DNA from: Pseudomonadota bacterium
GTDB lineage: Bacteria; Desulfobacterota; Desulfobulbia; Desulfobulbales; JAGXFP01
Length of the DNA: 64,000 nucleotides
Assembly (NCBI GenBank): GCA_018814305.1
Contig: JAHJAA010000044.1
Span: forward strand, 1-64,000
Direction: 5' to 3'
The notes beneath the pieces are model-generated. The model did no database searches. It saw only the letters and a list, made by a program, of their open reading frames with translations, and was not told the origin of the DNA. Both the position numbers and the translations under genes were made by a program. The first letter of the stretch is position 1. Each line of letters opens with the position of its first letter. This document shows, in pieces, positions 27,877 through 30,397 of the stretch.

Positions 27877-28362
27877 ATGACCCTTTGGAAAGAATTGATA
27901 ACTATTATCGGCCTCCTCCTGATCGGTTTGGTCTTGACCGGGTGCAATGAGAGGCGTTCGGCTGAAAGAACGGATTGTCTGCCGACCCCGTATGATGAAA
28001 TCGGCCCTTTTTACCGACCCGGCGCCCCGGTGCGGCAGGCGGTTGGTAAAGGGTATGTTTTATCTGGCATGGTGTTGTCGACGGATGATTGTCGGCTGTT
28101 ACCCGGAGCGCGTCTTGAATTTTGGCTGGTCAATCCCCAAGGGGAATATGATGATGCCCACCGAGCCACGGTTTACGCCGATCGAAAAGGGTGGTACCAT
28201 TTTGAAAGTAATCGCCCCATCGATTATGTCGGGCGTCTGCCGCATATTCATATGATGGTGACCGCCGATGGTCAGGAGCAGTTGATCACCCAGCATTACC
28301 CCACGGGAAAGACCTCCGGGGCGGTTTTTGATTTGGTGCTTGTCCCGGTGGCGAAACCATAA
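27877..28362 (+). CDS. Intradiol-dioxygenase-like lipoprotein
   Basis: A 161-residue protein with lipobox LTGC (~24). The remainder matches the intradiol ring-cleavage fold: GPFYRPGAP (~45), LPGARLEFWLVNPQGEYD (~75), a tyrosine in KGWYHFE and a second in IDYVGRLPHIHMMV. These give the Tyr-Tyr-His-His set of the non-haem iron(III) site. It is shorter than cytoplasmic catechol dioxygenases and is exported. The oxygen-using chemistry is notable for a likely anaerobe, so the role may be different. It is followed by the OYE homologue 43 bases later. Confidence 0.8.
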   Translation: MTLWKELITIIGLLLIGLVLTGCNERRSAERTDCLPTPYDEIGPFYRPGAPVRQAVGKGYVLSGMVLSTDDCRLLPGARLEFWLVNPQGEYDDAHRATVYADRKGWYHFESNRPIDYVGRLPHIHMMVTADGQEQLITQHYPTGKTSGAVFDLVLVPVAKP

Positions 28363-28405: not shown

Positions 28406-29527
28406 ATGACCGCATTGTTTGAACAAACTTCGCTCCAGACCATGACCCTGAGGAATCGTCTGGTCCGTTCTGCTACTTGGGAAGGAATGTGCGATAGGGA
28501 TGGTCGACCCACGGAAAAGTTGAGTGACTTCTACCGGGATCTGGCGGCTGGTGGGGTGGGGCTCATCGTCACCGGTTTTACCTTTGTTCGGCCTGATGGC
28601 AAGCAGATGCCTGGGAAGATGGGGATCCATACCGATGCCTTTGAACCCGAGATGCGCGCCCTTGCTGAGGGGGTGCATGGGGAGGGTGGTCGAATCTGCC
28701 TCCAGCTTGTCCATGCCGGGGGCCAGACCGATACCCGAAATGCCGGACGACAACCTTTGGCGCCCTCCGCCGTTCAGGTGGCGCAGTTCCCCGAGATGCC
28801 TGCTGAACTCCGGCGAGATGAAATCGAGGCAATTATTTCGGCCTTTGGTGAAGGGGCGCGCCGGGCTAAGGAATGGGGCTTTGACGCGGTGCAGTTGCAT
28901 GGCGCCCACGGCTATCTGATCAATCAATTCCTTTCCCCGTTGACCAATCTGCGGACCGATGAATACGGGGGCTCAATCGAGAAGCGCTGCCGCTTTCTTC
29001 TGGAGGTTTATGACAAGGTCCGGGCTACAGTGGGGGCCGATTACCCGGTGTTGATCAAGCTCAATGGTTCGGATAATCTTTCGGGGGGGCTTTCGGCTGA
29101 GGATGCCCTCTATGCTGCCCGCAAACTCTCAGAGAGAGGGATTGACGCTATAGAGGTCTCGGGCGGGACCTCGGCTTCCGGTGAGATGAGCCCGGTCCGG
29201 GCGAAAATCGATTCACCGGCCAAGGAGGCCTATAATTTTGATTTGGCCCTCAAGATAAAAAAGGGGGTTGCCTGCCCAGTTATGGTGGTTGGTGGTTTTC
29301 GGAGTCTTGAGGTAGTGGAGCAGGTTATCGTTGAAGAAGGCCTTGATTATGTGGCCATGGCCCGGCCTTTTATCAGGGAACCTGGCCTCGCCAATCGTTG
29401 GCTAAGCGGGGACCAAACTCCGGCTCGTTGTATCTCCTGTAACGGTTGCTTTGCCCCCGGCATTAAGGAAGGTGGAATCTATTGCGTGATTGAGAAGAAG
29501 GAGCAGGTGCGAGTCAGTACGAAGTAA
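28406..29527 (+). CDS. Old yellow enzyme-type NADH:flavin oxidoreductase
   Basis: A 373-residue TIM-barrel flavoprotein: the start RNRLVRSATWEGM, LIVTGFTFV (~55), the substrate pair HGAHGYLINQFLSPLTN (~170), GGSIEKR, and the C-terminal FMN phosphate site VGGFRS and MARPFI. It lacks the Fe-S and second flavin domain of the dienoyl-CoA reductase subgroup, though a CISCNGC stretch lies near the end. It probably reduces an activated C=C bond using NAD(P)H and FMN. It may be co-transcribed with the intradiol-like lipoprotein. Confidence 0.88.
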   Translation: MTALFEQTSLQTMTLRNRLVRSATWEGMCDRDGRPTEKLSDFYRDLAAGGVGLIVTGFTFVRPDGKQMPGKMGIHTDAFEPEMRALAEGVHGEGGRICLQLVHAGGQTDTRNAGRQPLAPSAVQVAQFPEMPAELRRDEIEAIISAFGEGARRAKEWGFDAVQLHGAHGYLINQFLSPLTNLRTDEYGGSIEKRCRFLLEVYDKVRATVGADYPVLIKLNGSDNLSGGLSAEDALYAARKLSERGIDAIEVSGGTSASGEMSPVRAKIDSPAKEAYNFDLALKIKKGVACPVMVVGGFRSLEVVEQVIVEEGLDYVAMARPFIREPGLANRWLSGDQTPARCISCNGCFAPGIKEGGIYCVIEKKEQVRVSTK

Positions 29528-29574
29528 TCATTTGAGCGAATGGGTTGAACCTGTTTGCGTGGTTCGAGGGAAGG

Positions 29575-29883
29575 ATGCATAAGATTCTTAGTAACATCGG
29601 CGCGGTACTTTCCGCCATTTTCTTTGCCTTTTGTTGACATGTTTCACTGATCCTGGCCAGTTTAGGTCTGGGGAGTGCAGCGGTGGGGCAATGGGTTCCC
29701 AGTCATAAGGGGATTTTCCCCTGGGTAGCCCTGGGGATGATGTCTTTGTCCCTGGTATTTGCCCTAAGGGAAAAGAAGAAGACAGGGAGCAATAAAGGAC
29801 TCGTGGTTTTTGCCTTAGCCCTGGTTGTGTCCGTTACATTGATCCTCTATACCGTCGTGAAGGAGGGGTTTGTTCCGTTGTAG
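29575..29883 (+). CDS. Candidate selenoprotein: MerT-like membrane protein with Cys-Sec (UGA)
   Basis: An ATG at 29575 with GAGGGAAGG upstream opens a 103-codon frame whose only interruption is TGA at codon 21 (29635-29637). The frame reads FFAFC-(TGA)-HVSLILASLGLG. In MerT-type mercuric transport proteins the same place, near the end of the first membrane helix, carries Cys-Cys followed by a similar LGFSG segment. Two more hydrophobic segments follow. A SECIS-like hairpin lies 14-37 bases after the TGA. I infer selenocysteine insertion. The alternative is a nonsense mutation, with a short internal start (GTG 29683) left over. The substrate could be a soft metal. Confidence 0.6.
29651..29674 (+). 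promoter_or_regulatory. SECIS-like hairpin downstream of the in-frame TGA
   Basis: TCC (29651-29653) pairs with GGA (29672-29674) and CCAG (29657-29660) with CTGG (29668-29671), with a TGG bulge on the 5' side. The 7-base loop is TTTAGGT. The loop begins 23 bases after the TGA, inside the distance usual for bacterial SECIS elements, and carries the GGU seen in the E. coli fdhF loop. The stem is short, so this is supportive rather than conclusive. Confidence 0.45.
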
Positions 29884-30024: not shown

Positions 30025-30057
30025 GCACAACCCTCGTTGAGGATGTGCTTTTTTTTT
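30025..30057 (+). terminator. Terminator-like hairpin between the Sec candidate and cspA-like gene
   Basis: GCACA/TGTGC (30025-30029 with 30044-30048) encloses CCTC/GAGG (30032-30035 with 30039-30042) and is followed by nine T. It either ends the transcript of the upstream gene or acts as an attenuator in the cold-shock leader. Confidence 0.6.
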
Positions 30058-30142
30058 GTACTACAAAAGGTTCTGCCTGCCGGAAATCCGGCGATATTAT
30101 CGAGTGGTCCTTTTAGGGCCCTATCATGTAAGGAGTAGTACG

Positions 30143-30343
30143 ATGTCTGAAGGAACAGTAAAATGGTTTAACGATGCAAAGGGTTTTGGTTTCATTGAGC
30201 AGGACGGTGGCAAGGATGTATTTGTACATCACACCGCCATTCAAGCTGAAGGTTTCAAAACTCTGGCCGAAGGTGCCCGGGTCACTTTTGAAGTGGTAGA
30301 CGGTCCTAAAGGTCCGGCCGCTGCAAACGTTCGCCAGCAGTAA
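30143..30343 (+). CDS. Cold-shock protein (CspA family)
   Basis: A 66-residue single cold-shock domain protein. It has the RNA-binding motifs RNP1 (KGFGFIEQ) and RNP2 (DVFVHHTAI) and starts [11 protein letters not shown]. It binds single-stranded RNA and DNA and melts mRNA structure. The ATG at 30143 has an AAGGAG site. The leader is long and T-rich (from about 30060), as is common for cold-shock mRNAs, and a strong terminator follows at 30370. Confidence 0.95.
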
Positions 30344-30369
30344 TATTTCGACCCGAATATACTGACTGC

Positions 30370-30397
30370 AGCCCCGCATTTTGCGGGGCTTTTTTTT
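30370..30397 (+). terminator. Intrinsic terminator of the cold-shock gene
   Basis: AGCCCCGCA (30370-30378) pairs perfectly with 30382-30390 around a TTT loop, followed by seven T. Confidence 0.9.

Follow-up and report, generated by a model that had tools for sequence, protein, structure and literature searches.

A short MerT-like selenoprotein with a membrane Cys-Sec pair, a putative carrier of soft metals or metalloids

Within the window, by which we mean the whole 64,000-nucleotide stretch of DNA that was analysed, a frame on the plus strand is open except for a TGA at codon 21. The locus thus raises two questions: whether this TGA is a stop or is read as selenocysteine (Sec), and, if it is Sec, what kind of protein carries it. 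Translation bore out the frame as the initial annotation had described it, giving 102 codons and a TAG stop, and the good ribosome site that had been noted was found directly 5' of the ATG. The features of the gene are as follows.

29575-29883, plus strand: MerT-like selenoprotein gene, 102 residues with Sec at 21 and a TAG stop (translation with TGA as U; homologues with TGA at the matching codon)
29566-29574, plus strand: ribosome-binding site region, GAGGGAAGG immediately 5' of the ATG (sequence)
29632-29637, plus strand: Cys20-Sec21 (TGT TGA), corresponding to MerT's vicinal Cys pair within the first transmembrane helix, TM1 (invariant in 22 loci; hhalign to the CC of MerT)

The ATG lies at 29575, the TGA at 29635-29637 and the TAG at 29881-29883. 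With the TGA translated as U, the product reads MHKILSNIGAVLSAIFFAFC-U-HVSLILASLGLGSAAVGQW..., and Cys20, immediately before Sec21, is the sole cysteine of the protein.

Selenocysteine at codon 21

A search of 58 related genomes, the source genome included, gave matches in 12, and in every one an in-frame TGA immediately follows the same Cys. Scanning genome contigs with a single protein as the query gave no match, and scanning them with a six-row alignment of close members gave further loci in Desulfobulbaceae, Desulfobacterales and one Nitrospirae MAG, all with the TGA. The one match of that scan to lack the TGA comes from Bacteroidetes; this protein has a Cys-Cys pair followed by a comparable glycine-rich stretch and is, by eye, perhaps MerC-like. 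The protein of one locus filed under an Anaerolineales MAG (L075) is identical to that of a Desulfobulbaceae contig (L074), and the assignment of L075 is probably a binning error. Altogether, the TGA stands at the matching codon in 22 of 22 distinct homologous loci, from Desulfobulbales-type genomes and the Nitrospirae MAG, and the cysteine that the initial annotation had placed before it is the same invariant Cys in all of them. A TGA kept after an invariant Cys in 22 distinct loci is far beyond chance.

Wider searches gave the same picture. In the order, 258 genomes yielded 19 full-length matches with E values below 1e-30, every one of them with a single TGA; the three weak matches, at E 1e-5 to 1e-6, proved to be MerT proteins that have Cys-Cys and, in the loop, a second pair of the form CxC. 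Three strong matches, all with the TGA, were found among 395 genomes of the phylum, the remainder being mostly Cys-Cys MerT. The check on whether homologues carry C or U at this position thus came out as U in close homologues and C in distant MerT; among the homologues searched there is no close one with Cys instead of Sec. No relatives were found in the viral contigs searched.

The nucleotides that follow the TGA are constrained beyond what the protein requires. We compared the codon identity between loci that share an amino acid with 300 draws based on the codon usage of each individual locus. In this simulation, synonymous sites are nearly frozen from codon 5 to codon 13 after the TGA: the observed identities at codons 5, 6, 7 and 8 are 1.0, 1.0, 1.0 and 0.97, versus expected values of 0.36, 0.22, 0.34 and 0.20, and codons 10-13 lie far above expectation, at a level reached by none of the 300 draws. 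Some codons farther 3' also stand out, the strong run being codons 5-13. Over the twelve codons that precede the TGA, identity stays mostly at background, so selection there acts on the protein rather than on the RNA. This frozen run coincides with a hairpin.

29651-29672 (about), plus strand: SECIS hairpin with its loop, AGUUUA, at 29659-29664 and a single U-U mismatch in the upper stem (hairpin in all loci; bacterial SECIS rules)
29650-29676, plus strand: nine codons with frozen synonymous sites (codon simulation)

In the window, the hairpin consists of GGCC-AGUUUA-GGUC (4 bp) above the U-U mismatch, followed by three more pairs, and the same bases fold into a hairpin in every locus. The initial annotation had proposed a SECIS-like hairpin with GGU in its loop. 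Its place and distance stand, but the loop is AGUUUA, the GGU being part of the stem's 3' strand. Bacterial SECIS elements have a loop of 3-9 nt with G within its first two places, 16-37 nt from the UGA (PMC13188914); the loop observed here lies 21 nt after the UGA, and the hairpin as a whole agrees with these rules. No Rfam family covers it in an Rfam scan. Its pairs hold in 99.2% of cells with no double changes seen, and since the pairs never change on both sides, and the hairpin sits in conserved codons that leave covariation without power, covariation neither supports nor denies it.

The Sec machinery that the initial annotation had proposed to look for is present in the source genome (4.15 Mb, 96.7% complete) in the form of selA, selB, selC and selD. 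The tRNA-Sec gene (selC) scores above the Rfam cut-off and is confirmed by ARAGORN with anticodon TCA. Two selB-like genes lie above the cut-off (G000:C10:58557-60455 and G000:C19:1967-3856), one of which adjoins selC. There are also two selD genes, the second of which (G000:C18:28023-28952) has one in-frame TGA and is therefore probably itself a selenoprotein gene. In the 58-genome search, selA is present in 12 of the 12 genomes positive for the MerT-like gene, as it is in nearly the whole order.

It is hardly credible that the TGA is an ordinary stop, the locus being either a pseudogene or the gene of a 20-residue leader or of a protein that begins after the TGA (a GTG at 29683 does open a 66-residue frame), given that the TGA and both its flanks are kept in 22 loci, that codons 1-20 show conservation at the protein level while their synonymous sites are mostly free, that the hairpin and the frozen codons come after the TGA, and that all Sec genes are in the genome. 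None of the three outcomes named in advance as refuting a candidate selenoprotein was seen, the proposal has gained considerably in strength, and we consider it close to certain that 29575-29883 is a selenoprotein gene.

Kinship to MerT and to known selenoproteins

Hydropathy indicates three hydrophobic helices with the Cys-Sec pair in the first, and the product is predicted to be a small three-helix inner-membrane protein of the MerT superfamily.

29596-29682, plus strand: predicted TM helix 1, residues about 8-36, Cys-Sec mid-helix (hydropathy; model helix 3-40)
29710-29859, plus strand: predicted TM helices 2 (residues 46-64) and 3 (residues 75-95) (hydropathy; AlphaFold2 model)

The AlphaFold2 model, which has a helix at residues 3-40, is of low confidence (pLDDT 66). 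Kinship to MerT, with flanks that align to the Cys-Cys pair, had been claimed from the letters of the sequence, and the profile comparison agrees: hhalign against Cys-Cys MerT proteins gave a probability of 98.6% and an E value of 7.6e-16, with Cys-Sec aligned on the TM1 Cys-Cys. Among the 13 members scanned, the MerT model NF033560 matches all 13 (best E 4.8e-11) and PF02411 matches nine (best E 6.6e-7), in both cases under the curated cut-off. No CcdA or DsbD model matched any of the members scanned.

With MerT (PF02411, NF033560, NF010314) the protein shares the three-helix layout, a vicinal pair in TM1 and the glycine-rich stretch after the pair. It differs in having Sec at the second position of the pair, in lacking a mer operon and in that all members score below the curated cut-offs. 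The proteins also differ between TM2 and TM3, where the members of the MerT comparison set have Cys and the window's protein has a basic, Cys-free loop, REKKKTGSNKG, and hence no second Cys pair. In MerT, the TM1 pair and the cytoplasmic-loop pair hand Hg(II) on to MerA.

Selenoproteins of MerT type have been described. The suggestion that Sec-containing mercury-transport-type proteins appear in surveys proved correct: a protein named 'putative mercuric transport protein' is listed among selenoproteins in PMC2398784, and a PF02411-type protein of that name with predicted Sec, ABB16073.1, is listed in PMC13188914. The latter has the Sec motif C/SxxU according to PMC13188914, whereas the window's protein has CU in TM1. 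NCBI has likewise named a 'MerT/CopZ fusion-like heavy metal transport selenoprotein', MerT_CopZ_Se (NF045683). This model comprises 235 positions with a CopZ-like part, whereas the window's protein has 102 residues and lacks that part. NF045683 matches the members weakly (best E 6.9e-6); the window's protein scores 11 bits versus a cut-off of 375 bits, and none of 247 genomes of the phylum reaches that cut-off. Three one-TGA matches to NF045683 in the phylum (L087-L089) were considered as Sec genes and rejected, since they are ordinary Cys-Cys MerT genes that end at the TGA, ahead of a MerP-like gene. Thus, Sec-containing MerT-type proteins are already known, and the short Cys-Sec form is a separate variant, set apart from the known types by its length, its lack of a CopZ part and its CU motif. 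It reaches the cut-off of none of the models in NCBIfam release 20.0, and annotation pipelines are therefore likely to cut the gene at the TGA or to miss it.

Gene neighbourhoods in the window and in relatives

Two genes precede the selenoprotein gene in the window.

28406-29527, plus strand: NADH:flavin oxidoreductase of the OYE family (PF00724, 6e-67)
27877-28362, plus strand: intradiol-dioxygenase-like protein (PF00775, 4.1e-6, just under cut-off)

The OYE gene ends 47 bases before the ATG at 29575, and the two are possibly co-transcribed. On the other side, at 30050-30396, lies a cold-shock gene with a near-threshold match to the cspA thermoregulator (72.9 bits, gathering 78). Scanning the flanks in the window for thioredoxin, TsoA, MbdU, ArsM and ArsR patterns revealed none of them. 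The source genome gave no match to the MbdU model or to the TsoA model; the absence of TsoA is weak evidence because the TsoA search matched no control genome either.

The relatives present a different set of neighbours. A TlpA/ResA-like thioredoxin with a WUxxC motif (HWUxxC) lies upstream in 11 of the 22 loci, and a Cys version of it in at least one more. A TsoA-like Sec protein (VEHUIKECTDSG; NF045695, E 5e-27, under cut-off) is present in nine of the 22, and an ArsR gene lies upstream in six. The gene directly downstream in 11 of the 22 encodes an N-terminal CU tail (CUPPxxxxGGRQ), which is joined either to DUF5714 (NF045648, the MbdU metal-binding double selenoprotein model; E 2e-119, under cut-off), the commoner partner, or, in three loci (L079, L034 and L082), to an ArsM-like methyltransferase. 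The tail looks as if it were a portable hand-over module. Relatives of TsoA and MbdU are neighbours, directly before and after the gene in other genomes, and not homologues.

All four Sec genes occur together in seven loci (L072, L073, L074, L076, L077, L078 and L085), which form an apparent operon. Their order is WUxxC thioredoxin, TsoA-like protein, MerT-like CU protein and MbdU-like protein with N-terminal CU tail; the row reaches about 1.2 kb to either side of the match and mostly stands behind an ArsR gene. This operon of the relatives looks built for handling a soft toxic metal or metalloid.

A putative carrier of soft metals or metalloids

Given its kinship and context, the best reading of the product is that of a three-helix Cys-Sec selenoprotein of the MerT superfamily that acts as a putative membrane carrier of soft metals or metalloids, to which we assign a probability of about 0.68. 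UGA codon 21 would be read as Sec by SelB and tRNA-Sec under the direction of the downstream hairpin, a step well supported by the sequence. Cys20-Sec21 would replace the vicinal Cys-Cys pair of MerT TM1 and would most likely bind a soft ion, be it Hg(II), an organomercurial, or As(III) or methylarsenite, and pass it across the membrane. Mercury as the substrate, and a very high affinity of the Cys-Sec site, may be supposed. In the relatives, the carrier would hand the ion to the adjoining CU-tailed MbdU-like or ArsM-like enzyme, much as MerA receives Hg(II) from MerT at its cysteine pairs; in the source genome such a partner is not beside the gene. The ArsR regulators and CU-tailed enzymes near the gene in relatives argue for a metal carrier. 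Against it stand the lack of mer genes (merR, merP, merA) beside the gene in the neighbourhoods examined, the missing cytoplasmic Cys pair, the thioredoxin-like Sec neighbours, which could point to redox work, and the window's own copy, which adjoins only the OYE and dioxygenase-like genes and no metal gene.

A narrower form of the metal-carrier reading holds that the MerT-like fold has been re-used for arsenic, in a pathway under ArsR control that deals with As(III) or its methylated forms. The six loci with ArsR upstream and the three with an ArsM-like methyltransferase directly downstream are consistent with this, but DUF5714/MbdU is the commoner downstream partner, ArsR-type proteins sense other metals too, and characterised MerT proteins carry mercury, so we regard restriction to arsenic as a tentative idea at best.

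Less likely still is that the protein serves as a redox conduit, its membrane Cys-Sec forming a selenenylsulfide and passing electrons to a periplasmic thioredoxin-like partner, as CcdA/DsbD does for TlpA proteins. In chemical terms, Cys next to Sec makes a redox centre, and the upstream WUxxC thioredoxins would supply a partner. The sequence kinship is to MerT, however, and the members scanned matched no CcdA or DsbD model; the neighbours also include ArsR and CU-tailed enzymes of metal or arsenic type; and the window's copy has no thioredoxin neighbour.

If the protein is a metal or metalloid carrier, the four-gene loci allow a bolder and rather doubtful proposal, namely a selenol relay across the membrane in which the periplasmic Sec thioredoxin, the TsoA-like protein, the Cys-Sec carrier and the cytoplasmic Cys-Sec-tailed enzyme would capture, import and convert a soft metal or metalloid, with Sec at every hand-over. 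The gene places selenocysteine in the putative ion-handling pair of a membrane carrier, which in relatives has as many as three further Sec proteins encoded around it, and therefore the role of selenols in metal and metalloid traffic becomes directly testable.
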